NCBI RefSeq assembly: GCF_003113265.1
Contig: NZ_PUIV01000005.1
Span: forward strand, 124,001 to 188,000
DNA from: Methylosinus sporium
GTDB taxonomy: Bacteria > Pseudomonadota > Alphaproteobacteria > Rhizobiales > Beijerinckiaceae
Direction: 5' to 3'
DNA: 64,000 nt
In this document: piece by piece, positions 4,059 through 21,425 of the stretch
Layout: each line of letters starts with the position of its first letter
How positions within the stretch are numbered: position 1 is the stretch's first letter
The notes under the pieces: generated by a model
What the model was told of the DNA's origin: nothing
What the model saw: the letters and a program-made list of their open reading frames with translations, nothing else
Database searches by the model: none
Translations under genes and position numbers: made by a program

Positions 4059-4604
4059 ATGGCGCAAAAGTCGGACGCGCGCTCGTGTGACATCGTCACG
4101 CAGGCGAAGCTGCTCTATGACGCGGGCGTTACGCCGATCACGGAGGTGCGCGCGATGCTCGGCATGAGCGAGAGCGCGTTCCGCAGCTTTCGTGAAAGAG
4201 AGGGATGGCCGCTGCGGCCGTCGCCGATCAAGCGCAAGAGCGCCGAAGCGCCCCCCGTGTCGGAGCGACGGAGCGTCGCGCCGCCGCCGAGAGAGTCGCG
4301 CAGCCTCATCGCGCGGCTGGAGGAGGCGGTGGAGCGCGAGTTTCTGCGCGCCGAAACGGCGCTCGCGACATGCGGCGCAAAGGCGGCGCCCAAGACCATG
4401 GAGACGAGCGCACGCGTGCTCGCCAGCCTGGTGCGCAGCTTGGCGGAATTGAAGCGGATGAATCGCGACGCCGGCGCGGCGCGAGCGGAGGACGAGCTTG
4501 ATCGAGACGCTTTCGACGACGAGCCTCCCCGCCAATTGGCCGAACTCCGCGAGGAGCTTGCTCGCCGGCTCGAGCGCATGTGCGGCGAAGGGCCGGCTCG
4601 ATGA
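4059..4604 (+). CDS. Terminase small subunit-like protein
   Basis: 181 residues from the ATG at 4059, chosen because GGAGG lies at 4047-4051. Residues 10-45 (VTQAKLLYDAGVTPITEVRA and following) look like a helix-turn-helix module with a tryptophan after it (EGWPLRPSP), as in small terminase or DNA-recognition subunits of Rhizobiales phages and GTAs. A basic, proline-rich linker and a helical C-terminus rich in Arg and Glu follow. It overlaps the large terminase gene by about 107 nt in another frame. The role, packaging-site recognition or stimulation of TerL, is inferred from position and domain. Confidence 0.7.
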   Translation: MAQKSDARSCDIVTQAKLLYDAGVTPITEVRAMLGMSESAFRSFREREGWPLRPSPIKRKSAEAPPVSERRSVAPPPRESRSLIARLEEAVEREFLRAETALATCGAKAAPKTMETSARVLASLVRSLAELKRMNRDAGAARAEDELDRDAFDDEPPRQLAELREELARRLERMCGEGPAR

Positions 4605-5886
4605 GCTGATCGACGGATTTTCCGCGCGCGAGCTCGAAACGCTGCTCGCCGATTGGGAGTTCTGCGCGCGCGAGGATCAATGGCCGCCCTTGCTGGCGCC
4701 GGGCGGCGAGCCCTGGCGGGTCTGGCTGATATTGGGCGGACGCGGCGCCGGCAAGACGCGCGCCGGCGCCGAATGGGTGCGCGCCATCGCGCGCGGCCGG
4801 CCCCAATTTGCGACGCGACCCTTGTCGCCGATCGCGCTCGTCGGCGAGAGCGCCGCGCATGTGCGCGATGTGATGATCGAAGGCGTCTCTGGAATACTCG
4901 CCGCGCATCCGCGCAGCGAGCGGCCCTTGTGGGAGCCATCGCGCAAGCGGCTCACTTTCGACAATGGCGTCGTCGCGCAGGCTTTCTCGGCCGAAGATCC
5001 CGAGAGTCTGCGCGGCCCGCAATTTTCCGCCGCCTGGTGCGACGAGCTGGCGAAATGGCGCTATGCCGACGAGAGCTGGGACATGCTGCAATTCGGGCTG
5101 AGATTGGGCGAATGGCCGCGCCAGCTCGTCACCACCACGCCGCGCCCCATTCCTTTGCTGAAGCGCCTGCTGAGCGAAGACGGCGTCGTGACGACGCGCG
5201 CGACGACGCGGCAGAACGCCGCCAATCTCGCGCCATCCTTTCTCGAGAGCGTCGTCGCGCAATATGCCGGCACGCGATTGGGACGTCAGGAGCTCGACGG
5301 CGACATTGTCGAAGAGCGCGCCGACGCTCTGTGGTCGCGCGACATGTTGGAGAGCGTCCGCGTCACCGAGGCGCCGCGGTTCGAGCGCATCGTCGTCGCG
5401 GTCGACCCGCCCGCCTCCTCGACCAGGCGCGCCGATCGCTGCGGCATTGTCGCGGCGGGGACGGCGAACGGCATCGTGTTCGTGCTCGAGGATGCGACGC
5501 TCGAGGCGGCGCGTCCAGCGCAATGGGCGCGCGTCGCGGTGGCGCTCTATCACAGGCTCGAAGCCGACGCGCTGATCGCCGAAGTCAATCAGGGCGGCGA
5601 GATGGTGCGCGCCGTCATTCACGAAGCCGATCCGTCCGTTCCTGTGAAAGAGGCGCGCGCGACGCGCGGCAAATATTTGCGCGCGGCGCCGGTCGCGCAG
5701 CTCTATGAGCAGGGCCGCGTGCGCCATGTCGGCGCCTTTCCGGCGCTGGAAGACGAAATGTGCGATTTCGGAACGAACGGACTATCGTCGGGACGCAGTC
5801 CCGATCGGCTGGATGCGCTGGTGTGGGCGGTGACCGCGCTGGCCTTGACGCCGCGCGCGGCCGCGCCGCGTATGCGGCGAGTATAA
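4498..5886 (+). CDS. Terminase large subunit (GTA gp2-like)
   Basis: 462-residue packaging motor. The ATPase domain has Walker A GGRGAGKT at about residues 80-87 and a Walker B-like AAWCDE near 178-183. The C-terminal nuclease domain shows acidic positions in VAVDPP (about 302), DALIAEVNQGG (about 358) and DRLDALVWA (about 438). The TTG at 4498 is the start of the longest frame; the homologous region begins only near residue 35 (DELIDGFSARELETLLADW), so the true start may be internal. The sequence is of the RcGTA g2 type. It is followed by the fibre-like genes rather than directly by the portal gene, which departs from the canonical order. Confidence 0.9.
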   Translation: MIETLSTTSLPANWPNSARSLLAGSSACAAKGRLDELIDGFSARELETLLADWEFCAREDQWPPLLAPGGEPWRVWLILGGRGAGKTRAGAEWVRAIARGRPQFATRPLSPIALVGESAAHVRDVMIEGVSGILAAHPRSERPLWEPSRKRLTFDNGVVAQAFSAEDPESLRGPQFSAAWCDELAKWRYADESWDMLQFGLRLGEWPRQLVTTTPRPIPLLKRLLSEDGVVTTRATTRQNAANLAPSFLESVVAQYAGTRLGRQELDGDIVEERADALWSRDMLESVRVTEAPRFERIVVAVDPPASSTRRADRCGIVAAGTANGIVFVLEDATLEAARPAQWARVAVALYHRLEADALIAEVNQGGEMVRAVIHEADPSVPVKEARATRGKYLRAAPVAQLYEQGRVRHVGAFPALEDEMCDFGTNGLSSGRSPDRLDALVWAVTALALTPRAAAPRMRRV

Positions 5887-6053
5887 GTCTGAATTCGCTT
5901 CTTCGAACGCGTAAGTCGCCTTCCTTCCCCGCTCGCCGAGCGGAGGGGGCTCTTCCTCGAATGTCGAAGCTCTTTCGCTTTGCGTCGCGGCGAGGCAGCA
6001 TAGCCCGCTTCGCTCGACCATTGATTTCGCCCTCTCGTTCATGGAGAAAAATC

Positions 6054-7649: not shown

Positions 7650-9407
7650 ATGGCCAATTTCCTCTCACGCCTGTTCGGCGCGAGCGCCTCCGCTCGCACG
7701 CGCGAAGAAAAGGCCTCGCGCGCCGCCGCTACGCTCACACTGCATTCCATCGGCGCGCCGCAATGGACCGCACGCAATAATGTCGCGCTCACTCGCGCGG
7801 GTTATGAGCGCAACGCCGTCTGCTATCGCGCCGTGCGCATGGTGGCGGAAGGCTGCGCCTCCATTCCCTGGCTCGCCTATGAAGGGCGCGTCGAAAGTCC
7901 CGAGCATCCGCTGCTGCGGCTGATCGAGCGGCCGAACCCGAGCGACACGAGCGTCTCCTTCATCGAGGCGCTCGTCTCCAATCTTCTGCTCTATGGAAAC
8001 GCCTATGTGGAAGGCGCTTTCGTCGACGGTCTGCTGCGGGAGGCCTATTGCCTGCGCCCCGATCGCATGAGCGTCGTCGCCGGACGCAATGGCTGGCCCG
8101 CGGCCTATGTCTATTCCGCCGGCGGCGAGGGCGTGCGCTATGAGATACAGGGGCGCGGCATAGAGCCGATCCTGCATATTCGTCTGTTCAATCCGCTCGA
8201 CGATATCTATGGCTTTGCGCCGCTCGCCGCCGCGCAGACGGCGCTCGACACGCACAATGCCGCGAGCTTCTGGAACAAGGCGCTGCTCGACAATAGCGCG
8301 CGGCCCTCCGGCGCGCTGGTCTATGCGGGACCGGACGGCGCGCATTTGACCGACGAGCAATTCGAGCGCTTGAAGCAGGAACTCGAGGAGAATTTCTCCG
8401 GCGCCGTCAACGCCGGCCGCCCGCTGCTGCTGGAAGGCGGGCTCGATTGGAAGGCGCTGTCGCTCTCGCCCAAGGACATGGATTTTTCCGAGACGAAAGC
8501 CTCCGCCGCGCGGGAGATCGCGCTCGCCTTCGGCGTGCCGCCGTTGCTGATCGGCCTGCCGGGCGACAATACATTCCGCAATTACGAGGAAGCCAATCGC
8601 GCCTTCTGGCGCCAGACGATCATTCCGCTCGCGCAGCGATTGCAGAAGGCGTTTCACGCCTGGGCGCAGCCGGGCTTCTCGCCCTTCCGCCTCGATTACG
8701 ACGCCGACCGCATCGACGCTTTGGCCAAAGAGCGCGCGCTCGAATGGAGCCGCATCGGAGGCGCCACCTTTCTCACGGTCGACGAGCAGCGCGAAGCGGC
8801 GGGCTATGGCCTGATGGGCAAGCGCGCGAAATATTCGGCGGATCAGCCGCGCATCGCCGCCGGATCGCCGGAAGGCGGGCAGTGGACGAGCGGCGACGGG
8901 AGTGGCGGCGATCTCGCGCAGATAGCGCTGAACACGATCGCCGGCGTGGTGAGCGATGCGGGCGCGCTGTTTTCGCAGATCGCCGATTTTATCGATCTGC
9001 GGGACGAGGAGGCGAACGGCGGACACGCCATCAGCGAGCATGTCGGCAAGAGCGAAGATTATCTGTTGCGTCGTGTTCAAAGCATGCGTTTCGACTGGGG
9101 GCCGTTCAGCGCGACGCCGCGCGTCGGCTCCTTCCCTTCGCTAGAGGCGGCGCAAAAGCTGATCAATTCGACAATTGCGCAAAACAAGGACATCGTCGAT
9201 CTTGTTGCGAGCGGCGAACTCGGTGTCACGGAAGCCAAACGAATCAATGCCTGGTTCGATTCGCCGACAGGCAGAGAGGGCTATGTCCCGAGCGCACGGG
9301 GACAGCCGGACATTCGCGACACATGGGATGTTGCCGTCGTCGTGAGGCACGATGTAACATCGCCGCGTGGATATCGAGTGCTAACCGCTTTCCCCGCCAA
9401 CCCGTAG
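7650..9407 (+). CDS. Portal protein fused to RNase A-like toxin domain
   Basis: 585 residues from the ATG at 7650, start of the family-like MANFLSRLFG. Residues about 20-390 are an HK97/GTA-type portal (YRAVRMVAEGCASIPW, LLYGNAYVEG, GLPGDNTFRNYEEANRAFWR, FLTVDEQREAAGYG). At about 392-415 is the linker YSADQPRIAAGSPEGGQWTS, a boundary motif often seen before toxin modules in Rhizobiales phage proteins. After a hydrophobic spacer, residues about 450-585 resemble the bacterial CdiA-CT RNase A-like domain (PF18431-type): GGHAISEHVGKSEDYLLRRV, FPSLEAAQKLINSTIAQN, INAWFDSP, VAVVVRHD and C-terminal YRVLTAFPANP. The usual TAY is TAF here. Ordinary portals end soon after the AAGYG region, so about 190 residues are extra. 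An immunity-like gene follows 9 nt later. Confidence 0.85.
   Translation: MANFLSRLFGASASARTREEKASRAAATLTLHSIGAPQWTARNNVALTRAGYERNAVCYRAVRMVAEGCASIPWLAYEGRVESPEHPLLRLIERPNPSDTSVSFIEALVSNLLLYGNAYVEGAFVDGLLREAYCLRPDRMSVVAGRNGWPAAYVYSAGGEGVRYEIQGRGIEPILHIRLFNPLDDIYGFAPLAAAQTALDTHNAASFWNKALLDNSARPSGALVYAGPDGAHLTDEQFERLKQELEENFSGAVNAGRPLLLEGGLDWKALSLSPKDMDFSETKASAAREIALAFGVPPLLIGLPGDNTFRNYEEANRAFWRQTIIPLAQRLQKAFHAWAQPGFSPFRLDYDADRIDALAKERALEWSRIGGATFLTVDEQREAAGYGLMGKRAKYSADQPRIAAGSPEGGQWTSGDGSGGDLAQIALNTIAGVVSDAGALFSQIADFIDLRDEEANGGHAISEHVGKSEDYLLRRVQSMRFDWGPFSATPRVGSFPSLEAAQKLINSTIAQNKDIVDLVASGELGVTEAKRINAWFDSPTGREGYVPSARGQPDIRDTWDVAVVVRHDVTSPRGYRVLTAFPANP
8508..8745 (+). repeat. Portal segment duplicated downstream
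   Basis: Codons about 287-365 of the portal gene. It is the intact partner of the remnant at 9811-10048: same reading frame, no gaps, about 17 differences over about 230 nt, nearly all synonymous. Confidence 0.9.
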
Positions 9408-9416
9408 AGCACAAAC

Positions 9417-9725
9417 ATGACGAGCCCGGACGCATTCAACGAGATTGCGAACTCGTTTCACCAAGACACGTATCTGTTTCACAAGTCGTTAGACAGCGCG
9501 ATCCGTGGGAGCATCGCCGAGTTGACGCCGACGCAGATGCTCATCGCGAAGAATTATCTCGACGAGTTGTTGAGTGGAAAATACAGTCGCGAGCAGCTCA
9601 TCGACATTTGGCTGAAGAGCCCCGCCGGATCCGGCGGCTTCGGCATGCCGGACCCTCCCGAAGGGTTTTTGAACAAAATACGCGCCGCGCTCGAATTCTC
9701 GATCGCGTCGCGCGAAACAGAATAG
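9417..9725 (+). CDS. CdiI-type immunity protein (putative)
   Basis: 102 residues. The pattern FNEIANSFHQDTYLFHKSLD, then a helix, YLDELLSGKYSREQLIDIWL, and C-terminal FLNKIRAALE fits the contact-dependent growth inhibition immunity family of the CdiI_2 type, where an early FHQD and a late FL..IR..L are characteristic. It begins 9 nt after the stop of the portal-toxin gene, the expected place for a cognate immunity gene. It should bind and block the RNase A-like domain in the producing cell. It has more A/T-rich codons than neighbouring head genes, which suggests it moved in with the toxin. The family call is from memory of conserved positions, not a search. Confidence 0.75.
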   Translation: MTSPDAFNEIANSFHQDTYLFHKSLDSAIRGSIAELTPTQMLIAKNYLDELLSGKYSREQLIDIWLKSPAGSGGFGMPDPPEGFLNKIRAALEFSIASRETE

Positions 9726-9810
9726 GTCATCCGAGAGGTTCCCGAAAGCACCCGGGCTTCAGGAATAAGCCGCCGCTCCGGAATTTTCGCGCAGGCGCGT
9801 ATGGGCTCCC

Positions 9811-10048
9811 GCACGAGAGATCGCCCTCGCCTTCGGCGTGCCGCCGCTGCTGATCGGCCTGCCGGGCGACAACACCTTCCGCAATTACGAGGAAGCCAAT
9901 CGCGCCTTCTGGCGCCAGACGATCATTCCGCTCGTGCAGCGCTTGCAAAAGGCGTTTCACGCCTGGGCGCAGCCGGGCTTTTCGCCCTTCCGTCTCGATT
10001 ACGACGCCGACCGCATCGATGATCTCGCGAAGGAGCGCATCGCGTTCA
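9811..10048 (+). pseudogene. Displaced portal gene fragment
   Basis: In-frame copy of portal codons about 287-365 (it starts AREIALAFGVPPLLIGLPGD and ends near ...RIDDLAKER). It is about 93 percent identical to 8508-8745 and lacks both the portal N-terminus and the end of the portal domain. After about 10042 the reading continues into unrelated codons (IAFSVAASTK...) and stops at 10096-10098. Only two residues differ from the intact copy (Ala to Val, Ala to Asp), so the divergence arose mainly under selection on a working portal gene. It is best read as the former portal 3' end pushed downstream when a toxin-immunity cassette recombined in. Confidence 0.85.
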
Positions 10049-10148
10049 GCGTCGCTGCATCGACAAAGAGCTCGAGCTTTGAACGTATCCCGGCGTAACG
10101 ACCGCTCGCGCGAGTGGCCGGCGCGTCTTCGCGTCTGAAAGGCGCCCC

Positions 10149-10334
10149 ATGTCCGAGATCGTCACCTCAATCATCGAGCGCGGCGATCTCGCCCATCTCG
10201 CGCTCTTCCTCTGGGCGAGCGCCGCCACTCTGTTCGCGCTGCGCGCCTTGCGCGAGCTCGGACGATCCACGCGGCGGCTCGACGCCTTCGTGCGCGAGCT
10301 CGCGCGCTTCAACCGCCGTTATGGGAGCGACTGA
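10149..10334 (+). CDS. Small membrane protein between portal and protease
   Basis: 61 residues beginning MSEIVTSIIERGDLAHLALF, with one hydrophobic segment (about 16-32) and an Arg-rich amphipathic C-terminus (LRELGRSTRRLDAFVRELAR). GTA clusters often carry a tiny ORF at this point (g3.5 position), but I cannot show homology. It ends directly before the ATG of the next small gene (TGA at 10332-10334, ATG at 10335). Confidence 0.55.
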   Translation: MSEIVTSIIERGDLAHLALFLWASAATLFALRALRELGRSTRRLDAFVRELARFNRRYGSD

Positions 10335-11306: not shown

Positions 11307-12536
11307 ATGTCGTCTCTCGAAACCAAGACGCTCTCCGGCGAGGAGGCGCTCGCCGATCTCCATCGCGCCTTCACCGCTTTCAAGGATACGAATGAAGAGC
11401 GCCTCGCGCAGATCGAGACGCGAATGGGCGTCGATGCGCTCACGGAAGAAAAATTGCAGCGAATCGATCGCGCGATCGACGAGACCAAGCGGCGCATCGA
11501 TCGCGTGGCGCTCGATCTCTCGCGTCCGCGCCTCGGCGCTTCGGCGAGTGACGACGCGCCGGCGCGCGAGCACAAATCCGCATTCGCGCTCTATATGCGC
11601 AGCGGCGAAGCGGTCGGCCTGAAGGCGCTCGAATCGAAGGCGCTTTCGGCGGGCTCCGGCCCCGATGGCGGCTATCTCGTGCCGACGCCGGCGGAGCAGG
11701 AGATTTTGCGTCGCCTCACGCGCCTCTCGCCCATTCGCGCCATCGCCAGCGTGCGCGAGATTTCGACGCATTCGCTGCGCAAGGCCTATTCGACGCAGGG
11801 GCCGGCCTCCGGCTGGGTGGCGGAGGCCGATCCGCGACCGCAGACCAGCAGCCAGCAGATCGTCGATCTCACTTTTCCGGCGATGGAGCTCTACGCTATG
11901 CCGGCGGCGACGCAGACATTGCTCGACGATTCCGCCATCGATGTGGAGCAATGGATCGCCGAGGAGGTGCAGACGGTTTTCGCCGAGCAGGAAGGCGCGG
12001 CTTTCGTGAGCGGCAATGGAACCGATAAGCCGAAAGGCTTTCTCGCCTATACGACGGTGGCGGACGCTAGCTGGACGTCGGGCAATATCGGCTATGTGGC
12101 GACGGGCGTCTCCGGCGGTTTCGCGGCGAGCAATCCGTCGGACGCTCTGTTCAATCTCGTCTATGCGCTGCGCGCCGGATATCGGCAGAATGGCAAATTC
12201 GTGCTCAATCGTCAGACCCAATCGACGATTCGCAAATTCAAGTCGTCGACCGGCGAATATCTCTGGGCGCCGCCCGCAACGCTCGATCAGCCGGCGTCGC
12301 TGCTGAATTTCCCGGTGGTCGAGGCCGAGGACATGCCCAATGTCGGCGCCGATAGTCTCTCCGTCGCTTTCGGCGATTTCGCGCGCGGCTATCTCGTCGT
12401 CGATCGGCTCGGCGTGCGCGTGCTGCGCGATCCTTATTCCGCCAAGCCCTATGTGCTCTTTTATACGACGAAGCGCGTCGGCGGCGGCGTGCAGGATTTC
12501 GAGGCCATCAAGCTCTTGAAATTCGGCGCCGCCTGA
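11307..12536 (+). CDS. Major capsid protein, HK97 fold (GTA gp5-like)
   Basis: 409 residues. About the first 90 form a helical, charged delta/scaffold region (LADLHRAFTAFKDTNEERLA, IDETKRRIDRVALD). The capsid fold follows, with KALSAGSGPDGGYLVPTPAE, FPAMELYAMPAATQTLLDDS, AAFVSGNGTDKPKGFL and a C-terminal strand VRVLRDPYSAKPYVLFYTTK. The protease presumably cleaves near residues 95-120, after the scaffold. Length fits phage and GTA capsids. Confidence 0.95.
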   Translation: MSSLETKTLSGEEALADLHRAFTAFKDTNEERLAQIETRMGVDALTEEKLQRIDRAIDETKRRIDRVALDLSRPRLGASASDDAPAREHKSAFALYMRSGEAVGLKALESKALSAGSGPDGGYLVPTPAEQEILRRLTRLSPIRAIASVREISTHSLRKAYSTQGPASGWVAEADPRPQTSSQQIVDLTFPAMELYAMPAATQTLLDDSAIDVEQWIAEEVQTVFAEQEGAAFVSGNGTDKPKGFLAYTTVADASWTSGNIGYVATGVSGGFAASNPSDALFNLVYALRAGYRQNGKFVLNRQTQSTIRKFKSSTGEYLWAPPATLDQPASLLNFPVVEAEDMPNVGADSLSVAFGDFARGYLVVDRLGVRVLRDPYSAKPYVLFYTTKRVGGGVQDFEAIKLLKFGAA

Positions 12537-12621
12537 GGGTGTGACCGGCGCAATAGCGGGCGGCGAGCCGATCTCGCCGCTCGTATCTCGCGTCGTCGCC
12601 AATCAGGCATGGGACAAAGAC

Positions 12622-13203
12622 ATGATTCCCGATCTTCTCACAGGGCCGGGGTCGGAGCCCGTTTCGCTCGACGAGGTCAAAGCTTGGCTTCGGCTCGATT
12701 CCAGCGACGAAGACCAGCTGTTGTCGACGCTGATCGTCTCGGCGCGCATGACGCTAGAAGCCTATACGCGGCGCTTCTTCGTGACGCAGCGTTGGCGAAT
12801 GCGGCTCGACGCCTGGCCGGCGCAGACGCTGCGCCGTCGGACCTTGGCCATTCCATTCGCGCCTCTCTCGGCCGTGTCGGATATTCGCGTCTATGATTCA
12901 TCCAATGTCGCGCAGACCGTCTCCCGCGAATCCTATCGTGCGGCGCCGACGCGCGAGGCCGGGCGGCTGGTGTTCCTCGAGCCGCCAGCGGAGCCGGGGC
13001 GCGCCTATGACGGAATCGAGATCGACATCGATGTGGGATATGGCGAAAGCGCCACGGATACGCCCGAGTCTTTGCGTCGCGCCATTCTGGCGCTCGTCGC
13101 GCACTGGCACGAAAATCGTGGAGACGCGGCGGAGACGGGCGCGGCTCTGCCGACGATCGTCCTGGCCTTGGCCAAGCCGTTTCGACGCGAGCGGCTGACA
13201 TGA
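12622..13203 (+). CDS. Head-tail connector (GTA gp6-like)
   Basis: 193 residues from the ATG at 12622. It is of the gp6/phiE125-gp8 adaptor family: SLDEVKAWLRLDSSDEDQLL, IVSARMTLEAYTRRFFV, then a beta-rich middle and SLRRAILALVAHWHENRGDA near the C-terminus. It docks on the portal ring. The upstream in-frame GTG at 12541 would add 27 unconserved residues and was rejected. It overlaps the closure gene by ATGA. Confidence 0.88.
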   Translation: MIPDLLTGPGSEPVSLDEVKAWLRLDSSDEDQLLSTLIVSARMTLEAYTRRFFVTQRWRMRLDAWPAQTLRRRTLAIPFAPLSAVSDIRVYDSSNVAQTVSRESYRAAPTREAGRLVFLEPPAEPGRAYDGIEIDIDVGYGESATDTPESLRRAILALVAHWHENRGDAAETGAALPTIVLALAKPFRRERLT

Positions 13204-13526
13204 GCGCGCCGAAGATCGGCGAGTTGCGCCTGCGCATGGGCCTCGAAGCGCCGGTCGACACGCCGGACGACAGCGGCGCGATGACGCGCAGCTATGTGAC
13301 GATCGCCGACGTCTGGACGAAATTGACGCCGCTCTCCGGCGAAGCGCGCTTCGTCGAGGAGAGGCAGGAGCAAGCGCTCGAATGGCTAGCGCAGCTCCGG
13401 TGGCGCGCCGATGTGGCGAGCGAGATGCGGCTCGTCGCCGGCGCGCGCAGGCTGCGCGTCCTAGCCGTCTATGATCCGGACGGACGGCGCCGCTTTCTGT
13501 GGTGCCGCTGCGAGGAGATCGCATGA
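13200..13526 (+). CDS. Head closure/stopper protein (GTA gp7-like)
   Basis: 108 residues with the pattern of phage head-tail adaptors: LRLRMGLEAPVDTPDDSGAM, VTIADVWTKLTPLSGEARFV, and VLAVYDPDGRRRFLWCRCEE. It seals the connector after packaging. It overlaps the preceding gene by 4 nt. Confidence 0.85.
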   Translation: MSAPKIGELRLRMGLEAPVDTPDDSGAMTRSYVTIADVWTKLTPLSGEARFVEERQEQALEWLAQLRWRADVASEMRLVAGARRLRVLAVYDPDGRRRFLWCRCEEIA

Positions 13527-13536
13527 GGGGACCCGA

Positions 13537-13947
13537 ATGAGCCGATCGCCGATCATCGTTCTGCGCCGCGTGATTCGCGCCTGCCTGGCGAGCGACGCCA
13601 CTCTCGTCGCAGCGCTCGGCGGCGCGAAAATCTACGACGAGGCGCCGCGCGGCGCCGAAGCTCCCTATCTGCTGTTCGCCGAGGCGTCACTGCGCGACTG
13701 GTCGACCACCGGCAGTCGTGGAGCCGAGCAAATCTTTACTGTCTCGGTCGTCTCGATCGAGCGTGGCGTGGCGCAGGCGCTCACGATCGGCGAGCAGATC
13801 GTCGCGCTGCTCGACGAGGCGCCGCTCATTCTCGATGGGCATCATCTCGTCGATCTGCGTCATCAGGCGAGCGAGACGCGGCGTGAGCGCAATGGTCGCT
13901 TCGCGCGGATCGATCTGCGCTTTCGCGCGACCACCGAATCTCTCTAG
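13537..13947 (+). CDS. Tail terminator, DUF3168 (GTA gp8-like)
   Basis: 136 residues from the ATG at 13537 (SPIIVLRRVIRACLASDATL, APYLLFAEASLRDWST, ASETRRERNGRFARIDLRFR). These are DUF3168 hallmarks: an N-terminal helix, the LVAALGG.KIYDEAP segment, and a late R.D.RF.A strand. It caps the tail tube at the head interface. Confidence 0.88.
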   Translation: MSRSPIIVLRRVIRACLASDATLVAALGGAKIYDEAPRGAEAPYLLFAEASLRDWSTTGSRGAEQIFTVSVVSIERGVAQALTIGEQIVALLDEAPLILDGHHLVDLRHQASETRRERNGRFARIDLRFRATTESL

Positions 13948-13977
13948 CCTCAACGATAGATATTCTGGAGCCATCGC

Positions 13978-14388
13978 ATGTCCGCACAAAAGGGCAAAGA
14001 TCTGCTTTTGAAGGTCGATGACGGCAGTGGAGCCTTCATTTCCGTCGCCGGCCTGCGCACGCGGCGACTTTCGCTGAACGCCGAGGCCGTCGATGTCACC
14101 GACGCGGAATCGAGCGGACGCTGGCGTGAATTGCTGGACGGCGCCGGCGTGAAGCGCGCGAGCCTCGCCGGGACCGGAATTTTCAAGGATCAGGCTTCGG
14201 ACGGTCTCATTCGGCAGCTCTTCTTCGACGGCGTGCTGCGCCAATGGAAACTCGTGGTCCCCGATTTCGGCGTCATGACGGGTTCGTTCCAAATCACGAG
14301 CCTCGACTATCGCGGCGAACACAATGCCGAAATGACCTTCGACATCGCGCTCGAATCCGCGAGCGCGATCTCTTTCACGCCGGCGTGA
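13978..14388 (+). CDS. Major tail tube protein (GTA gp9-like)
   Basis: 136 residues of the TP901-1/GTA tail tube family: AQKGKDLLLKVDDGSGAFIS, AEAVDVTDAESSGRWRELLD, GVKRASLAGTGIFKDQASDG and a C-terminal FDIALESASAISFTPA. It polymerises around the tape measure. Its start follows DUF3168 by 30 nt. Confidence 0.92.
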   Translation: MSAQKGKDLLLKVDDGSGAFISVAGLRTRRLSLNAEAVDVTDAESSGRWRELLDGAGVKRASLAGTGIFKDQASDGLIRQLFFDGVLRQWKLVVPDFGVMTGSFQITSLDYRGEHNAEMTFDIALESASAISFTPA

Positions 14389-14398
14389 GGCTCTCTTC

Positions 14399-14749
14399 AT
14401 GGCCAATCGGAAACGCGGCGACGTCGAGGCGACGCTGGACGGAGAGACCTATCGTCTCTGCCTCACGCTCGGAGCGCTCGCCGAGCTAGAGAGCGGGCTC
14501 GGCGTCGACGATCTCGTCGCGCTCGCGGAACGTTTCGAAGCGCGCCGCCTTTCGGCGCGTGATCTCATTCGCGTCATCGGATGCGGATTGCGCGGCGCAG
14601 GATATGAAATGAGCGACGACGAAGTCGCGCGCATGACCGTCGCCGCGGGGCTCGGCGATTATGTGAAAATCGTCGCAAATCTATTGGCCGCGACTTTCGG
14701 AGATGGCGGCGACGCAAACCCTCCGCCGCCGCGGGACACGAGCGGATGA
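14399..14749 (+). CDS. GTA gp10 family tail assembly protein
   Basis: 116 residues matching the GTA_gp10 family: MANRKRGDVEATLDGETYRL, then LCLTLGALAELESGLGVDDL, and LIRVIGCGLRGAGYEMSDDE. It is a tail assembly chaperone-type protein. Overlap with the next ORF (ATGA) suggests coupled production, as for tail chaperone pairs. Confidence 0.88.
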   Translation: MANRKRGDVEATLDGETYRLCLTLGALAELESGLGVDDLVALAERFEARRLSARDLIRVIGCGLRGAGYEMSDDEVARMTVAAGLGDYVKIVANLLAATFGDGGDANPPPPRDTSG

Positions 14750-14949
14750 GGCCTCAGCCCTTTCCTTGGGCGCGGGCCATGGCCTTCGGTCTCGGCGTGC
14801 TGCGCCTCGCGCCGCGCGACTTCTGGGCGATGACGCCGCGTGAATTGGCCTGTGCGGCCGAAGGCGTCTATGGCCGCGCTGTCGGCGCGCCGTCGCGCGA
14901 CGCTTTGATGGCGCTGATGCGCGCGTTTCCTGATGGAGACGAAAAGTGA
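14746..14949 (+). CDS. GTA gp10.1 tail assembly chaperone (DUF2376)
   Basis: 67 residues with the signature FPWARAMAFGLGVLRLAPRD, FWAMTPREL and DALMALMRAFPD. This is the short protein found between gp10 and the tape measure in GTA clusters. It overlaps both neighbours by 4 nt. Confidence 0.88.
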   Translation: MRPQPFPWARAMAFGLGVLRLAPRDFWAMTPRELACAAEGVYGRAVGAPSRDALMALMRAFPDGDEK

Positions 14950-15536
14950 CCGATTCGACCAGCAACGAAAATGGCGTGCAACTCTCCTTCGATCCGTCCT
15001 TTCATGCGCTCGATCTGAAGACGACGAAAGCGCTGCTGCAAGACATAAATGTCGCCGCCGCCACGGCGACGAAGACATTGTCCAGCGGGCTCGCCGGCGC
15101 GGCGGCGAATGGCAAGAGCTTCGACGCGACGCTCGCTTCCATCGCGCGCTCGCTCGCCGAACTCGGCGTCGACGCAGGAACGCAGGCGTTGACGCAAGGC
15201 CTGACGAGCGGACTGAGCAGATTGCTGTCGGGCGCCTTCGGGACGGGAGGCGGCGCTTCGGTGGCGCCATTCGCAGAGGGCGGCGTCGTCGCCAGTCCGA
15301 CATTCTTCGGCGCGAATGGGGCCGTCGGACTCATGGGCGAGCGCGGGGCCGAGGCGATCATGCCGCTGGCGCGCGGGCCGGATGGACGGCTCGGCGTGTC
15401 GATGCAAGGCGCGCAACAATCCGTCGCCGTGACTGTCAATATCGCTGCGCAGGACGTTGACAGCTTTCGGCGTTCCGAAGGGCAGATCACCGCGGCTTTG
15501 GCGCGCGCGGTGGCGCGTGGCCGGCGCAATATTTGA
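14946..15536 (+). CDS. Short tape measure protein (GTA gp11-like)
   Basis: 196 residues from the GTG at 14946. A helical N-terminal part (TKALLQDINVAAATATKTLS) is followed by the GTA tape-measure C-terminus: GGSxxxPFAEGGVVASPTFF-type segment (here VAPFAEGGVVASPTFFGANG), then LMGERGAEAIMPLARGPDGR. Such a short tape measure implies a short tail, as for RcGTA. The GTG overlaps the previous TGA. Confidence 0.85.
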   Translation: MTDSTSNENGVQLSFDPSFHALDLKTTKALLQDINVAAATATKTLSSGLAGAAANGKSFDATLASIARSLAELGVDAGTQALTQGLTSGLSRLLSGAFGTGGGASVAPFAEGGVVASPTFFGANGAVGLMGERGAEAIMPLARGPDGRLGVSMQGAQQSVAVTVNIAAQDVDSFRRSEGQITAALARAVARGRRNI

Positions 15537-15548
15537 GGATGAGGCGCC

Positions 15549-16190
15549 ATGACGGATTTTCACGAGACGCGCTTTCCGCTGGACATATCGCTGAATGGAC
15601 GCGGGGGGCCGGAACGCCGTACCGATGTGGTCACGCTCGGCTCCAATCGTGAGTCGCGCAATGCGCGATGGGCGCACTCGCGCCGACGTTACGAGGCAGG
15701 CTATGGGGTAAAATCGCTGGCGCAGCTCGCCGCGGTGATCGAATTCTTCGAGGAGCGGCGCGGTCGGCTGTTCGGCTTTCGCTGGCGTGATCGCGCCGAT
15801 TTTTCCTCCGCGCGATCGGGCGGAGCGGTTTCGGCGAGCGATCAGACGCTCGGCGTCGGCGATGGCGCACGCACGCAATTTCAGCTGCTCAAGACCTATG
15901 GCGAGAGCTTCGCGCCTTATGCGCGCGTCATCGCCAAGCCGGTCGCAGACAGCGTTCGCGTCGCCGTCTCCGGCGTCGAAAAGACGTGCGGCGTCGATTT
16001 CGGCGTCGATACGACGAGCGGCGTCGTGACCTTCGCGCCTTCGGCGGCTCCGCCGACAGGAGCCGCGGTGACGGCGGGCTTTCTCTTCGATGTGCCCGCG
16101 CGATTCGATGCGGACTATCTCGAAATCGACGTCTCCTCCTTCGAGGCCGGCGCGATTCCGAAAATTCCGATCATCGAAATCGTTCCTTGA
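15549..16190 (+). CDS. Distal tail protein, DUF2460 (GTA gp12-like)
   Basis: 213 residues of the TIGR02217/DUF2460 family: FHETRFPLDISLNGRGGPER, RTDVVTLGSNRESRNARWAH, FFEERRGRLFGFRWRDRADF and QLLKTYG. It forms the distal tail ring. Length and motifs are complete. Confidence 0.93.
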   Translation: MTDFHETRFPLDISLNGRGGPERRTDVVTLGSNRESRNARWAHSRRRYEAGYGVKSLAQLAAVIEFFEERRGRLFGFRWRDRADFSSARSGGAVSASDQTLGVGDGARTQFQLLKTYGESFAPYARVIAKPVADSVRVAVSGVEKTCGVDFGVDTTSGVVTFAPSAAPPTGAAVTAGFLFDVPARFDADYLEIDVSSFEAGAIPKIPIIEIVP

Positions 16191-16205
16191 ACGAAAGGAG
16201 CCTTC

Positions 16206-17111
16206 ATGCGTTCGCCCTCGACCGCCATGCGGGAGTGTCTCGACGCTTCGGCTTCGACCTTCTGCAATTGCTGGCGCCTCGCGCGCAAGGATGGGACGAT
16301 CGAGGGATTTACCGATCATGATCGCGATCTTTCATTCGGCGGCGTGACCTATCGCGCCGCGTCCGGCCTCACGGCGACGCAAATCGAGGCGAGCGTTGGT
16401 CTCGTGGTCGGGAGCGGCGAGGTGGTCGGCGCATTGCAATCGGACGGTCTTTGCGAGTGCGATCTGGCGGGCGGGCTCTATGACGGCGCAGGTGTGGAGA
16501 TATGGCTCGTCGATTGGCGCGACGCCGACAATCGACTGCTTCTCGATGCGACCACGATCGGCGAGGTCACGCGCAGCGAATTCGCCTTCCGCGCCGAATT
16601 GCGGTCGCTCGCGCATCTCTTCGACGAGACGCGCGGCGAAAGCTTCCAGCGCGGTTGTTCCGCCGATCTCGGCGACGCGCGTTGCAAGGTCGATCTCGGC
16701 GCTGCGTCGTTTCACACGACGGGCGTCGTGCTGGCGCTCGCTCATCTGGCGCTCGCTCATGGCGCGATCATCGCGGGCCTGGAGAGCGAATTCGCCGATG
16801 AGTTTTTCACCGGCGGCTCGCTGACTTTCACGAGCGGCGCCAATGCCGGCGCGCGCGTCACGGTAAAGTCGCATCGGCGCTCTGGCGAAAACGCCGGGAT
16901 AGCCTTGTGGTCCCGCCTCGCGGGGCCCGTCGCTTCGGGCGATACTTTCGCGATCGTGGCGGGATGCGACAAGAGTGCGGCGAGCTGCGAGCGGAAATTT
17001 TCCAATATCGTCAATTTTCGCGGCTTTCCGCATATCCCGGGCAATGATGTGGTGATGTCTTATCCGAGCTCGCTGGCGCCGTCGATGGACGGCGGGAGCT
17101 TTTTCGAGTGA
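16206..17111 (+). CDS. Tail hub protein, DUF2163 (GTA gp13-like)
   Basis: 301 residues. The N-terminal DUF2163 domain has CNCWRLARKDGTIEGFTDHD, LTATQIEASVGLVVGSGEVV and the LRSLAHLFDETRGESFQRGC segment. The C-terminal BR0599-like domain ends with CDKSAASCERKFSNIVNFRG, FPHIPGNDVV. In RcGTA the equivalent protein binds an iron-sulfur cluster through conserved cysteines; several are present here (Cys in RGCSADLGDARC and CDKSAASCERKF). It overlaps gp14 by GTGA. Confidence 0.92.
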   Translation: MRSPSTAMRECLDASASTFCNCWRLARKDGTIEGFTDHDRDLSFGGVTYRAASGLTATQIEASVGLVVGSGEVVGALQSDGLCECDLAGGLYDGAGVEIWLVDWRDADNRLLLDATTIGEVTRSEFAFRAELRSLAHLFDETRGESFQRGCSADLGDARCKVDLGAASFHTTGVVLALAHLALAHGAIIAGLESEFADEFFTGGSLTFTSGANAGARVTVKSHRRSGENAGIALWSRLAGPVASGDTFAIVAGCDKSAASCERKFSNIVNFRGFPHIPGNDVVMSYPSSLAPSMDGGSFFE

Positions 17112-17545
17112 GCGGGCTCGCGCGCGCGGCGATCGTGTCGGAGGCGCGGCGCTGGATCGCGACGCCCTATCGTCATCAGGCGTCGCTCATTCATATCGGT
17201 TGCGATTGCCTCGGGCTGGTGCGCGGCGTGTGGCGCGCGCTCGTCGGGCCGGAGCCGGAGGAGGCGCCGCCATATTCGCCAGATTGGGCGGAGGCGGAAG
17301 GCGAGGAGAGCTTGGCGCTCGCCGCCCATCGGCATTTTTCGTTTGTCGAGCGAGAGGGATTTCGCTCGGGCGACGTTCTGCTGTTTCGCTTTAAAGCGCA
17401 TTTGCCGGCGCAGCATCTCGGCATAGCGACGAGTTCCACGCATATGGTCCATGCGCATGGCGGCGCCTGTGTCGCCGAGGCGCCGATCGGAGCATGGCGC
17501 AAAAGATTGGTCGGCGCCTTCGCCTTTCCCGGCGTCACAGACTGA
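17108..17545 (+). CDS. Tail NlpC/P60 peptidase (GTA gp14-like)
   Basis: 145 residues. The catalytic Cys is in HIGCDCLGLVRGVW and the His in AQHLGIATS. It is a cell-wall peptidase carried on the tail tip that opens recipient peptidoglycan during DNA delivery. It starts at the GTG overlapping gp13's TGA. Confidence 0.93.
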   Translation: MSGLARAAIVSEARRWIATPYRHQASLIHIGCDCLGLVRGVWRALVGPEPEEAPPYSPDWAEAEGEESLALAAHRHFSFVEREGFRSGDVLLFRFKAHLPAQHLGIATSSTHMVHAHGGACVAEAPIGAWRKRLVGAFAFPGVTD

Positions 17546-17558
17546 GCTCGAGGACGAG

Positions 17559-20500
17559 ATGGCCACTTTGTTGTTGCAGGCGGCCGGCGCAGCGATCGCG
17601 CCGGTCGGCTCGATCGTCGGCAATCTCGTCGGCGCCGTCGGCGGCGCGCTCGTCGATGCGGCGCTACAGCCGCGCGGCGCGACGCGCTATGAGGTCGGTC
17701 CGCGTCTCAAAGCGATGGACGGCGTCGCCTCCACCGAGGGCGCAGCCATTCCACGCGTCTATGGTCGCGCGCGCATCGGCGGTCAGATGATCTGGGCGAC
17801 GCGCTTCATCGAGCAGGCCAATGTCTCGTTGGACGGCGGCTCCGGCAATAGCGGCAAGGGCGGGGGCGGTTCGGCGCAGACGATCGGCGTCACATATTCC
17901 TATTACGCCAATTTCGCGATCGGGCTGTGCGAGGGGCCGATCGCTTTCGTGAGGCGCATTTTCGCGGATGGAAACGAGCTCGACATGACGAGCCTTCCCA
18001 TTCGAATCTATTCGGGCGACGAGGAGCAGCTTCCCGATCCGTTGATCGTCGCCAAGGAAGGAGCGGAGAATGCGCCGGCATATCGCGGCCTCGCCTATGT
18101 CGTGTTCGAGCAATTGGCGCTGTCGGCTTTCGGCAATCGCATTCCGCAATTCACATTCGAGGTGACACGGCCGGTCGCCGGACTGGGCCAAGAGATTCGC
18201 GCGATCGATGTCATTCCGGGCGCGACGGAGGCGGGCTATCAGCCGTCGCTACAGCTGAGCTTTTTTTCGCCCGGAGCGACCAGCGCGGAAAATCGGCATC
18301 AGCTGACGGCGGCGAGCGATTGGACCGCATCGATCGACGCGCTGCAGGCGCTCTGTCCCAATCTCGAGAGCGTGGCGCTGGTCGTGGCCTGGTTCGGCGA
18401 TGATTTGCGCGCGGCTCATTGCTCGATCGCGCCGCGCGTCGATGCGACATTCAAGACGATCGGCGAGTTCGACTATATGTTCGGGCCGTTCTGGCCTGCC
18501 GATTGGTCTGTCGCAGAATCGAGTCGCGCGACGGCGCGCCTCGTTTCGCAGATCGACGGACGCGCGGCTTTCGGCGGCACGCCGAGCGACGCATCGGTGC
18601 GCGGCGCCATCGCCGATCTTCGCGTGCGAGGCGTCGCGGTCGTTTTTTATCCCTTCTTGATGATGGATGTGGCGCCGGGCAATGTCTTGCCGGACCCGCG
18701 AGCGGATGGGATCGGGCAGCCGGCTTTTCCTTGGCGGGGACGCATCACCTGCGATCCGGCGCCGGGACGCGTCGGCTCGGCGGATGGAACGAGCGAAGCG
18801 GCGACGCAGGTCGCGGCGTTTTTCGCGCAATATCGCGCGTTCATTCTACATTATGCGGAGCTTTGCGAAGAGGCGGGCGGCGTCGACGCATTTCTCGTCG
18901 GCTCGGAGCTGGTGGGGTTGACGCGCATCCGGTCCGCCGCCGGAGTCTATCCGGCGGTCGCCGCGCTGGCGTCGCTCGCCGCGGATGCGAAGGAGCTCCT
19001 TCGCAGCGGAACGAAAATCGGCTACGCGGCCGATTGGACGGAATATGGCGCGCATGTTCCCACAACGGGCGAGCTGCGCTTTCCGCTCGATCGGCTCTGG
19101 GCGTCGTCGGCGATCGATTTCGTCGGGATCGACGTTTATTGGCCGCTCTCCGATTGGCGCGATGGCGCAGACCATCTCGACGCGCAGATCGCGCGCAATA
19201 TTTATGACGCCGATTATCTTTCGGCGCGGATTGCGTCTGGCGAGGGATTCGATTGGTTCTACGCGAGCGATGAAGATCGTCTGGCGCAGATTCGCACGCC
19301 GATCGTCGATGGGCTCGGCAAGCCATGGACGTTCCGAGAGAAGGATCTCGTCGGCTGGTGGTCCAATTCGCATCACGAGCGCGTCGATGGCGCAGAGCTC
19401 GGCGCGCCGACCGCCTGGACGCCGCAGAGCAAGCCGATCTGGATCATCGAGACGGGATGTCCGGCCGTGGATCGCGGCGCCAATGCGCCCAATGTGTTTC
19501 CCGACGCGCATTCGTCGGAGGGCGGCTTGCCGTTTTTCTCGCGCGGGGGGCGCGACGATCTCATGCAGGCGCGCTTTGTCGAGGCGATGATCGCGCATTT
19601 CGATCCGACGCGCGCGGGCGGCGACGCGCGCAATCCGCTGTCGAATCTTTATGGCGGGCGCATGGTGGATCCGGCGCGCATTCATGTCTGGTGCTGGGAT
19701 GCGCGGCCGTTTCCGGCCTTTCCCGGCTGTTCCGACATTTGGACGGATTCGGCGAATTGGGAGACCGGACATTGGCTCAATGGGCGCCTCGAAGGTGCGC
19801 CGCTCGATCGGCTCATTGCGACGCTCGCCGCGACGATCGCGACCGATGGTCTCGTCGCGGAGCGGCCGGCGATCGACGGTTTCGTCGACGGCTATGTTAT
19901 CGATAGCGCCATGTCGCCGCGCGAGGCGATCGAGCCGCTCGCGTCATTGTTCGGCTTCGACGCGGTGGTGTCCGGCGGAGCGCTGCGCTTTGTTTCGCAC
20001 GCGATGAAAAGCGTGCGGGAGATCGGCGACGACGATCTCGTTCCGAGCAAGGATGGAACGCTCATCGAATTGCGGCGCGCGCAGGAGAGCGAGTTGCCGC
20101 ATGAGATCGCGTTGTCTTTCGGCGATTCGGAATTCGATTATCGCACGGGGCGCGTGCTGTCGCGGCGTCTCGAGGGCTACTCGTCGCGACGCAGCGAAGC
20201 GCAGACGGCGGTGATGATCGGGCGGAGCAACGCTCAGAGATTGGCGGATATTTGGTTGCAGGATATTTGGGCGGGGCGGGAGACGGCGCGCTTTTCGGTG
20301 CGGCCCGGCCTCGTCGCCCTCGAGGCGGGAGATGTGACCTCGTTGGCGAGGATGCCGGGGCGCCTATGGCAGATCACGCGGATCACCGATGGCGCTGCGC
20401 GCGAAATCGAGGCGCGCGCCGTCGATCCCAGCGTCTATGACGTCGGCGAGCGCTTTCTCGGCCGGCGTTCGCTCGCGGCGCCCGCCGTGATCGGGCCGCC

Positions 20501-21425
20501 GCGCATCATCGTTCTCGATCTCGCGATCGCGAAGGAAGGCGCGAAGGCCTTTTCCTATGTCGCGGCTTTTGCCGATCCTTGGCCGGGCGCGCTGGCCATT
20601 CGTCGGAAGATCGGCGCTTCTTTCGAGCCGGTGGGGCTCATCGAGAAGCGTGCGACGATCGGCGAAACGCTGGGTGCGCTCGCCCCCGGTCCGCTCGCGC
20701 GCTTCGATCGCGGCGCGAGCGTGACGGTGAAGCTCGCCTCTGGAGCGCTCGCCTCGGTGGACGACGCCGGCGTTTTCGCTCTGCGCTCGGCGATGGCGAT
20801 CCGCGGAGATGATGGATGCTGGGAGATTTTCGCCTTCACGCGTGCGGAGCTCGTTGCGGCGAGCACCTATCGCTTGTCGCGGCTTCTACGCGGGATCGGC
20901 GGCGAAGACGCACTCGCGTCGCGCAGCGTATCGGCGGGGGCGACAGTGGTGCTGCTCGATGATGCGATCACGCCGCTCGCGGTCGATTTCGCGGAAATCG
21001 ATTCTGCGCGCGTCTATCGGATCGGTCCGGCGGATCGCGATTACAGCGATCCGACCTATGTCGAGCTCGAAGTGACGGCGACGCGCAAATCCGCCTCTCC
21101 GTATTCGCCGAGCCATGCTCATGCGAGACGCATGGCGGAAGGCGTGGCGATTGCTTTCACCCGGCGCGGACGCATCGATGCGGACGCTTGGGAGCCGCTC
21201 GACATTCCGCTTGGAGAAGAGAGCGAGGCCTATGAGATCGTCGTCGCGCTTCCCGGCGGCGCGCGGCGTTCGCTGAGTGTGACGTGCCCTTCGGCGCTCT
21301 ATGCGGCGAGCGATGAGCTTGCGGACTTCGGGGCGCCGCAGACGAGCCTCGCTGTGCAGATATTTCAAATCGGCGCGCGTGTCGGACGCGGCTTCCCGCT
21401 CGTCGCGACGCTGCCTATCGAGTGA
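17559..21425 (+). CDS. Giant tail tip/host specificity protein (GTA gp15-like)
   Basis: 1288 residues from the ATG at 17559; the frame is open 36 codons upstream, but those codons overlap gp14 and are not conserved. The hydrophobic Gly/Ala-rich N-terminus (AGAAIAPVGSIVGNLVGAVG) is typical of megatron proteins. The middle contains the GTA TIM-barrel-like region (FLVGSELVGLTRIR, IDFVGIDVYWPLSDWRDG, KPIWIIETGCPAVDRGANAP, WCWDARPFPAFP). The C-terminal third has the phage-tail-3 type domain. It probably pierces or recognises the recipient envelope. Intact and colinear with RcGTA g15. Confidence 0.93.
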   Translation: MATLLLQAAGAAIAPVGSIVGNLVGAVGGALVDAALQPRGATRYEVGPRLKAMDGVASTEGAAIPRVYGRARIGGQMIWATRFIEQANVSLDGGSGNSGKGGGGSAQTIGVTYSYYANFAIGLCEGPIAFVRRIFADGNELDMTSLPIRIYSGDEEQLPDPLIVAKEGAENAPAYRGLAYVVFEQLALSAFGNRIPQFTFEVTRPVAGLGQEIRAIDVIPGATEAGYQPSLQLSFFSPGATSAENRHQLTAASDWTASIDALQALCPNLESVALVVAWFGDDLRAAHCSIAPRVDATFKTIGEFDYMFGPFWPADWSVAESSRATARLVSQIDGRAAFGGTPSDASVRGAIADLRVRGVAVVFYPFLMMDVAPGNVLPDPRADGIGQPAFPWRGRITCDPAPGRVGSADGTSEAATQVAAFFAQYRAFILHYAELCEEAGGVDAFLVGSELVGLTRIRSAAGVYPAVAALASLAADAKELLRSGTKIGYAADWTEYGAHVPTTGELRFPLDRLWASSAIDFVGIDVYWPLSDWRDGADHLDAQIARNIYDADYLSARIASGEGFDWFYASDEDRLAQIRTPIVDGLGKPWTFREKDLVGWWSNSHHERVDGAELGAPTAWTPQSKPIWIIETGCPAVDRGANAPNVFPDAHSSEGGLPFFSRGGRDDLMQARFVEAMIAHFDPTRAGGDARNPLSNLYGGRMVDPARIHVWCWDARPFPAFPGCSDIWTDSANWETGHWLNGRLEGAPLDRLIATLAATIATDGLVAERPAIDGFVDGYVIDSAMSPREAIEPLASLFGFDAVVSGGALRFVSHAMKSVREIGDDDLVPSKDGTLIELRRAQESELPHEIALSFGDSEFDYRTGRVLSRRLEGYSSRRSEAQTAVMIGRSNAQRLADIWLQDIWAGRETARFSVRPGLVALEAGDVTSLARMPGRLWQITRITDGAAREIEARAVDPSVYDVGERFLGRRSLAAPAVIGPPRIIVLDLAIAKEGAKAFSYVAAFADPWPGALAIRRKIGASFEPVGLIEKRATIGETLGALAPGPLARFDRGASVTVKLASGALASVDDAGVFALRSAMAIRGDDGCWEIFAFTRAELVAASTYRLSRLLRGIGGEDALASRSVSAGATVVLLDDAITPLAVDFAEIDSARVYRIGPADRDYSDPTYVELEVTATRKSASPYSPSHAHARRMAEGVAIAFTRRGRIDADAWEPLDIPLGEESEAYEIVVALPGGARRSLSVTCPSALYAASDELADFGAPQTSLAVQIFQIGARVGRGFPLVATLPIE

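Follow-up and report, generated by a model that had tools for sequence, protein, structure and literature searches.

Polymorphic toxins on MuF proteins of temperate phages are predicted to be packaged in the phage head (Zhang et al., 2012, PMC3482391; Jamet et al., 2017, PMC5576092), and the Nudix, 2H and ART domains that some phages join to MuF, to the portal or to the capsid-processing peptidase are thought to be injected (PMC9503650). In contact-dependent growth inhibition (CDI), the toxin of Yersinia kristensenii (PDB 5E3E; Pfam PF18431) is the C-terminal part (CdiA-CT) of the exoprotein CdiA, and an all-helical immunity protein, CdiI, is encoded immediately 3' of it. Here we analyzed 64,000 nucleotides of Methylosinus sporium (assembly GCF_003113265.1, contig NZ_PUIV01000005.1, positions 124,001 to 188,000), hereafter the window, in which one uninterrupted open reading frame (ORF), at 7650-9407, encodes a 585-residue protein that joins the portal of a gene transfer agent (GTA) to a toxin domain of this CDI type. 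The system is of the CDI/Rhs/MuF polymorphic toxin kind; its carriers are head proteins of GTAs. We propose, at a probability of about two in three, that the C-terminus of a portal like that of RcGTA, the GTA of Rhodobacter capsulatus, has acquired a polymorphic toxin-immunity cassette whose toxin is delivered by the particle against non-immune recipients.

Each of the described systems shares some of these features. As with the MuF toxins, polymorphic toxins sit on a phage head-associated protein; unlike what is described for MuF (PMC5576092, PMC3482391), the carrier is the portal itself and has no MuF domain, it belongs to a GTA rather than a temperate phage, and cassettes occur in carrier-flanked arrays. 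The Nudix, 2H and ART fusions use the same head proteins as effector carriers, whereas they are enzymes, are not from GTAs, and come with no mention of paired immunity genes in the sections that describe them (PMC9503650). The Y. kristensenii pair shares the toxin fold, the active-site His, Arg and Thr, and the all-helical immunity protein encoded immediately 3' of the toxin; in contrast, its carrier is CdiA and not a GTA portal, its Tyr278 is replaced by Phe in the window domain, and its CdiI is approximately 22% identical to the window immunity protein. RcGTA is alike in portal, gene order and GTA-specific domains as far as its description goes (PMC7296036), but its portal, Rcc01684, stops at 396 residues and has no toxin domain. 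Judging from the listings of the open-licence literature, we found no report of toxins on GTA portal or capsid proteins. As far as these searches reach, it is new that a GTA is the bearer, that a portal comes with paired immunity, and that cassettes form portal- and protease-flanked arrays.

The N-terminal part of the fusion matched the Phage_portal family of Pfam over residues 57-383 (E = 1.3e-84), as well as TIGR01537. The closest portal in the PDB was Rcc01684 (6tba), of which residues 18-389 of 396 aligned with residues 17-385 of the window protein (E = 7.7e-110); that chain has no toxin domain. Because the Rcc01684 match covers residues 17-385, the C-terminal extension starts where GTA portals end. 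Moreover, 24 of the 34 usable portal frames of our comparison stop no more than 45 residues away from position 388, a count for which loci were partly chosen for long frames and three cut or stop-ridden frames were excluded. These results bear out an earlier note on this DNA, which had read the ORF as a GTA-type portal whose fold ends around residue 390, where GTA portals stop. At E values up to 1, Pfam returned only Phage_portal and RNAse_A_bac for the fusion ORF, and hence no MuF domain. A phage portal domain, not the CdiA exoprotein of CDI systems, serves as carrier; no search for cdiB was made.

The C-terminal part was compared with known toxins by sequence and by fold. The RNAse_A_bac model (PF18431) matched residues 458-582 over its whole length (positions 1-113 of 113; E = 1.7e-14; 55.1 bits for a cut-off of 27). 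At E values up to 1, the sole PDB match of the toxin was 5e3e_B, the CdiA-CT of Y. kristensenii (E = 1.1e-5 with phmmer), and a profile built from 27 toxin sequences found the same chain with E = 5.9e-12, the other three matches being far weaker. An AlphaFold model of the domain, with a predicted local distance difference test (pLDDT) mostly above 90, superposed on the 5E3E toxin over 113 of 113 residues (VIA Z = 15.8; 1.7 Å), and the next VIA entries were RNase A family proteins with Z of 4.8 or less. Foldseek matched model and 5E3E with E = 3.2e-9. The toxin family, which the earlier note had recognized from conserved positions and for which it had proposed an HMM search and a structure prediction, was thus recovered by both, with a significant fold match. 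From the model, the C-terminus of the ORF is a CDI toxin of the Y. kristensenii type and a predicted RNase. The active site of CdiA-CT RNase A-like toxins has been described as H175, R186, T276 and Y278 (PMC9086364). At these positions, the window protein has His, Arg, Thr and Phe, retaining three of four, so the LTAFP motif had been read correctly. Among 27 aligned sequences, His is found at the H175 position in all, and Thr at the T276 position in 25, the other two having Ser.

The gene that begins 10 nt after the toxin stop encodes the putative partner. Its model (pLDDT 83) had the CdiI chain of 5E3E as best match (Foldseek probability 1.00; TM-scores 0.71/0.73; E = 0.016), and VIA superposed the two over 89 of 94 residues (Z = 11.8; 2.1 Å), the next entry having Z = 5.9. 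We also ran an immunity profile against the PDB at E values up to 5, which returned 16 distinct sequences, most of them designed helical proteins or myosin light chains. The best E value (5.8e-9) was spread over repeats of a designed protein, and these matches were judged compositional and left unused. CdiI of 5E3E was absent from them, so that sequence alone shows no link; PF18593 (CdiI_2) was matched by four of the 18 members of the immunity alignment (best E = 3.5e-7), the window protein not being among the four. Two adjacent genes that model as the two partners of one solved complex are our strongest single argument, and the product of 9417-9725 is very likely, on the predicted structure, the immunity protein for the portal-borne toxin. 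The earlier suggestion of a cognate immunity gene at this place agrees with the match to the CdiI chain of the very crystal that holds the toxin homologue. The arrangement recurs in relatives, as an ORF of 80-160 codons begins between -25 and +30 nt from the toxin end in 34 of 40 toxin copies, vs. 466 of 2400 random points (19%). A looser downstream-ORF rule was weak (38 of 40 copies vs. 1233 of 2400 points, or 51%); at least two of these 38 copies (L089 and the second copy of L100) look wrong-frame, and L080 contributes two near-identical copies.

Toxin and immunity sequences also diverge together. Across 21 cassettes, their distances gave a Mantel r of 0.77, a value reached by none of 9,999 permutations; these 21 of the 40 toxin copies were hand-picked for an immunity protein of helical type, without L101:8061, and the distances are uncorrected for shared ancestry. 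For the 13 cassettes with a full portal, r was 0.87 between toxin and immunity, 0.50 between toxin and portal, and 0.32 between immunity and portal. Pairs of loci illustrate the pattern. The portals of genomes G187 and G174, both of the genus of the window, are 95% identical, their toxins 43% and their immunity proteins 22%; for loci L065 and L101 the values are 97%, 38-40% and 16-17%, and for G174 and a silent cassette of G078 they are 81%, 57% and 51%. In these alignments, the toxin travels with its immunity gene more than with the portal. Between the window (G000) and Methylosinus sp. Ce-a6 (G105), dN/dS was lowest for the capsid gene (0.096) and the portal domain (0.115), followed by the protease (0.181), the toxin core (0.194) and the immunity gene (0.219); toxin and immunity are under purifying selection and evolve faster than capsid and portal, at a pace like that of the protease. 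We rejected an assembly artefact or frame error as the source of the fusion, because toxin and immunity show this purifying selection and because the in-frame fusion, the immunity gene, a displaced portal piece and its spacing of 1303 nt all recur in Methylosinus sp. Ce-a6.

This displaced piece lies just 3' of the immunity gene, where a 230-nt segment of the portal is repeated with 93% identity at a spacing of 1303 nt. The second copy is probably, as judged from the repeat, a scar of cassette entry, and the shared arrangement, with the same spacing in G105, suggests that this entry probably predates the split between the two strains. When 15 loci were compared with themselves, all 15 had a repeat that includes the 3' part of the carrier (portal in 13, protease in L064 and L085), although these loci had been preselected for the additional carrier pieces or second copies of the toxin that protein searches had revealed in them. 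By hand measurement in three arrays (L063, L080, L101), the repeated carrier DNA stops approximately 40-105 nt ahead of the toxin domain. Some loci hold more than one cassette. In genome G078, the active cassette is followed by a second, silent one that has an immunity gene of its own and another portal piece; locus L082 has two extra portal pieces and a second toxin; and between portal and protease, L101, from a Methylocystaceae metagenome-assembled genome (MAG), holds several 3' pieces of the portal gene together with three RNase A toxins and as many immunity-like genes. Locus L080 has a portal 3' piece whose linker runs into another CDI toxin (PF18451, CdiA_C; E = 1.1e-16). Such arrays in drafts and MAGs may partly be assembly products, since L080 holds a 3.4 kb unit twice (97% identity over 3373 nt) and the portal frame of L101 is cut short. 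The portal is not the sole carrier, as G078 also encodes a complete prohead protease domain, linker and RNase A toxin in one frame (L064:211-1812; PF04586 and PF18431), and L085 has linker and RNase A toxin on a 3' piece of the protease gene (4885-6003) while the full protease carries the linker and a C-terminus without a Pfam name. Displaced protease fragments lie downstream of the protease-borne toxin in both L064 and L085.

Carrier and toxin are joined by a linker that reads QPRVPAGxPxGGQWTSG in the cassettes of relatives. A DNA pattern for PR[VI]xAGxxxGGQWT had a single match in the genome of the window, at the portal, and 35 matches in 32 of 199 genomes of the family; reversed controls had none in either case. 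Thirty linker loci were examined as stretches of 3 kb or less. Nine were portal fusions or portal 3' pieces and two were stand-alone genes with GTA genes in the stretch. The other 19 showed no GTA gene in the stretch, and most of them were genes that combine a short N-terminus with one of various C-termini. Because of these 19, we take the linker as a boundary motif for many C-termini and not as proof of GTA delivery. In this it can be compared with VENN of CdiA, also a boundary motif before varied C-termini (PMC3150448). Four genomes (G187, L126; G042, L054; G025, L060; G010, L072) have a stop codon at the Gln or Trp of GGQW that cuts the C-terminus off an open portal. We considered programmed readthrough, which would arm a minority of subunits; decay is simpler, since G187 has a second stop and G042 a frameshift farther on, and since Gln and Trp codons easily become stops.

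Taken together, the alignments indicate a polymorphic toxin system with a conserved carrier, exchangeable C-terminal toxins and linked immunity genes. The resemblance is close to the orphan cdiA-CT/cdiI and rhs-CT modules, in which a carrier 3' fragment, a boundary motif, a toxin and an immunity gene likewise recur as arrays downstream; the account of the orphan cdiA-CT/cdiI modules has them retaining a variable length of carrier 5' of the boundary motif and being exchanged between loci (Poole et al., 2011, PMC3150448). Unlike the carriers and the VENN motif given there, those found here are the portal or the prohead protease and the GGQW-type linker.

We infer delivery by the particle; the carrier, the linker, the folds of toxin and immunity protein and the signs of exchange come from sequence and models. 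The crown end of a portal faces the interior of the head, so up to twelve toxins could be enclosed in each particle. The RcGTA portal is described as a dodecamer with clip, stem, wing and crown (PMC7296036). During assembly, the immunity protein would shield the producer. After attachment to a recipient, the toxin would probably be released at or near the linker, accompany the DNA into the cell and cut RNA there unless a matching immunity protein is made, which would limit the benefits of the particles to kin that retain the identical cassette. Recombination of portal- or protease-flanked cassettes through the repeated carrier sequence could create new specificities, as has been suggested for the CDI orphan modules. 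Toxins on both portal and protease, two head proteins, would be expected if the fusions serve to get the toxin packaged in the head.

Survey data show how widely the fusion is kept. Of 149 genomes of the family, 107 had a match to the query and 87 (hand count) matched the portal with E < 1e-100. RNase A-type sequence was found at the GTA portal in eight of the 87, five of them having one uninterrupted frame (G000, G105, G078, G135, G038); hence the extension is not a general trait of related portals, and it is accompanied by an immunity gene, two findings opposite to those that the earlier note had named as damaging to its reading. The genus amounts to a natural experiment, because all 10 of its genomes have the GTA portal, five with an uninterrupted fusion (G000, G105, G161, G174, G078), two with stops (G187, G042) and three without the domain (G146, G128, G199). 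At the level of the order, the toxin profile matched 16 of 397 genomes, including that of the window, and we followed up 20 regions from the other 15, leaving out two weak matches in G247. Two are GTA clusters, one with an open portal-toxin frame (G550) and one whose toxin is flanked by a portal piece and the protease (G528); in two others (L208, L209), no toxin was found with five query cores. Just short open frames (16-163 residues) precede the toxin in 14 of the remaining 16, several with the linker. In the IMG/VR contigs L081 and L086, RNase A toxins also occur on phage portals without a match to the GTA portal.

Several observations weigh against armed particles. Stops or frameshifts interrupt the fusion in G042 and G187, of the same genus, and in G114 and G064, indicating that it is dispensable. 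There are stand-alone RNase A-type toxins with the linker and no GTA gene in the examined stretch, and exchange is not free of ancestry, since toxin and portal distances correlate as well (r = 0.50, n = 13). In the active site, Arg occupies the R186 position in just 12 of 27 sequences, and the Tyr278 position holds Phe, as in the window, in 22 and Tyr in five; its presence in 22 of 27 makes Phe a trait of the subfamily rather than a local defect. The immunity product has no Pfam or NCBIfam match and no credible PDB match by sequence, its Foldseek E value is just 0.016, and its VIA Z of 11.8 is in the range, below approximately 13, where a common helical-bundle arrangement may be all that is matched. 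CDI toxins have their own way across the inner membrane. The portal-borne toxin would need one too, because the DNA of RcGTA is proposed to be ejected into the periplasm and then taken up by the competence system (PMC7296036).

Cassettes could instead be selfish passengers that land at the 3' ends of conserved GTA or phage head genes, recombine there and persist by addiction, with no role in the particle. The displaced carrier scars, the frequent decay within the genus (two of 10 fusions broken, three of 10 genomes without), the cassettes on protease and stand-alone genes, and a drop in GC content (portal, 0.65; linker and toxin, 0.62; immunity gene, 0.56) would all suit this explanation. We nonetheless hold it to be unlikely, as a landing site alone needs no in-frame toxin, whereas the fusion to head proteins is in frame through a conserved linker, and toxin and immunity have dN/dS of approximately 0.2. 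Action inside the producer seems more improbable still. The RNase would halt translation or aid death when assembly outruns immunity, or serve as an anti-phage alarm on disturbed head assembly. The toxin is indeed made in the producer cytosol with its immunity gene 10 nt downstream, and stand-alone versions exist among GTA genes, between gp7 and gp8 (L079) or between protease and capsid genes (L099:8683-9609, Afipia massiliensis; L103:8632-9420, Nitrobacter winogradskyi); but such action would not favor diverse exchangeable toxin-immunity pairs or silent second cassettes. That Phe for Tyr278 and encapsidation leave an inactive relic, a structural tail without RNase activity, is very improbable, the Phe and the variable Arg being offset by the near-invariant His and Thr and by the immunity-like ORF that usually lies downstream and co-diverges with the toxin.

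If particle delivery is true, GTA head proteins join the known carriers of polymorphic toxins. The maintenance of GTAs is unexplained (PMC6209664, in whose main text the word "toxin" has zero occurrences), and a particle-borne toxin with immunity encoded in the cluster is a concrete and testable candidate, which could help to explain why bacteria retain costly GTA particles. More tentatively, GTAs could be a form of policed DNA sharing. Particles would kill or inhibit recipients that lack the cluster or bear another cassette, in the manner of a greenbeard; as the immunity gene sits inside the cluster, loss of the GTA would be lethal among kin, and the system would diversify through tandem arrays of toxin cassettes on portal and protease. 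If this possible reading is true, GTAs could be maintained without reliance on the benefits of recombination.

The features of the window are listed in Table 1. Judged by its genes, the window holds an RcGTA-type cluster in the order terminase, portal, small conserved ORF, protease, capsid, then gp6 to gp15, with models named after GTAs in order (PF11836 GTA-gp10, PF13547 GTA_TIM, PF23666 Rcc01698_C, and others). The protein at the gp11 position (14946-15533) is the sole one of 10 in the gp6-gp15 stretch without a Pfam match.

Table 1. Features of the GTA cluster and its toxin-immunity cassette (window coordinates).
Feature	Coordinates	Strand	Basis
Terminase large subunit, GTA	4498..5886	+	PF03237, PF17289
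GTA portal domain, RcGTA g3 type (residues 1-390)	7650..8819	+	PF04860 (E = 1.3e-84), TIGR01537, Rcc01684 (6tba)
Portal segment, repeat copy 1 (inside portal)	8506..8735	+	Direct repeat, 93%
Junction linker KYSADQPRIAAGSPEGGQWTSGDGSG	8829..8906	+	Linker DNA pattern unique in genome; precedes other C-termini in relatives
CdiA-CT RNase A-like toxin domain, predicted (residues 458-582)	9021..9395	+	PF18431; 5e3e_B by sequence and fold
Immunity gene (very likely), CdiI-Ykris type, 102 aa, all-helical model	9417..9725	+	5e3e_A/C fold match; co-divergence with toxin
Displaced portal 3' fragment, copy 2 (probable scar)	9809..10038	+	Direct repeat; open as ORF 9838-10098
Small conserved ORF, 61 aa, portal-protease interval, kept beside cassette	10149..10334	+	Read by hand; homologues at same place in L065, L076, L097
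Prohead protease, GTA; alternative toxin carrier in G078 and L085	10508..11194	+	PF04586
Major capsid protein, GTA	11307..12536	+	PF05065
Remaining RcGTA-type cluster, gp6-gp15, including GTA-gp10 and GTA_TIM/Rcc01698 domains	12541..21425	+	Pfam matches in 9 of 10 proteins

A survey of related portals for alternative C-terminal domains, suggested by the earlier note, yielded RNase A, CdiA_C and C-termini that Pfam does not name. The last were found after portal and linker in G109, G190 and L093. Pfam gave no match above cut-off for the C-termini of L057 (both), L052, L093, L158 and L049 (G109), and in L148, L101 (11137-12633), L082 (2619-3458) and L085 (2955-4454) it matched only the portal or protease domain. 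A pre-toxin region with a DPxWxPxP-like stretch, also without a Pfam name, follows the linker in L080:2292-3824, L085:2955-4454, L101:11137-12636, L148 and L158-L160. Small Cys-rich C-termini of two related kinds, some out of frame, follow it in L061 (G051), L060 (G025), L093, L141 and L156 and are possibly another effector family. Two stand-alone genes in the GTA cluster of G048 (L057:6187-6795 and L057:10421-11047) start with a short N-terminus that leads through the linker into a C-terminus containing a DIHHIVEQ stretch, which resembles an HNH-type nuclease by eye, with no Pfam match above cut-off. The N-termini of the stand-alone toxins of L099 and L103 have a stretch RPDAxRWIRP in common.

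Between terminase and portal, the window has a 403-aa ORF (6286-7494) without a Pfam match; Methylosinus sp. Ce-a6 (L075, L095) lacks it there, with a terminase-portal gap of approximately 140 nt. Finally, the GTA cluster of the window is itself catalogued as a virus in IMG/VR (L074, IMGVR_UViG_2839752880_000001, 100% identity).

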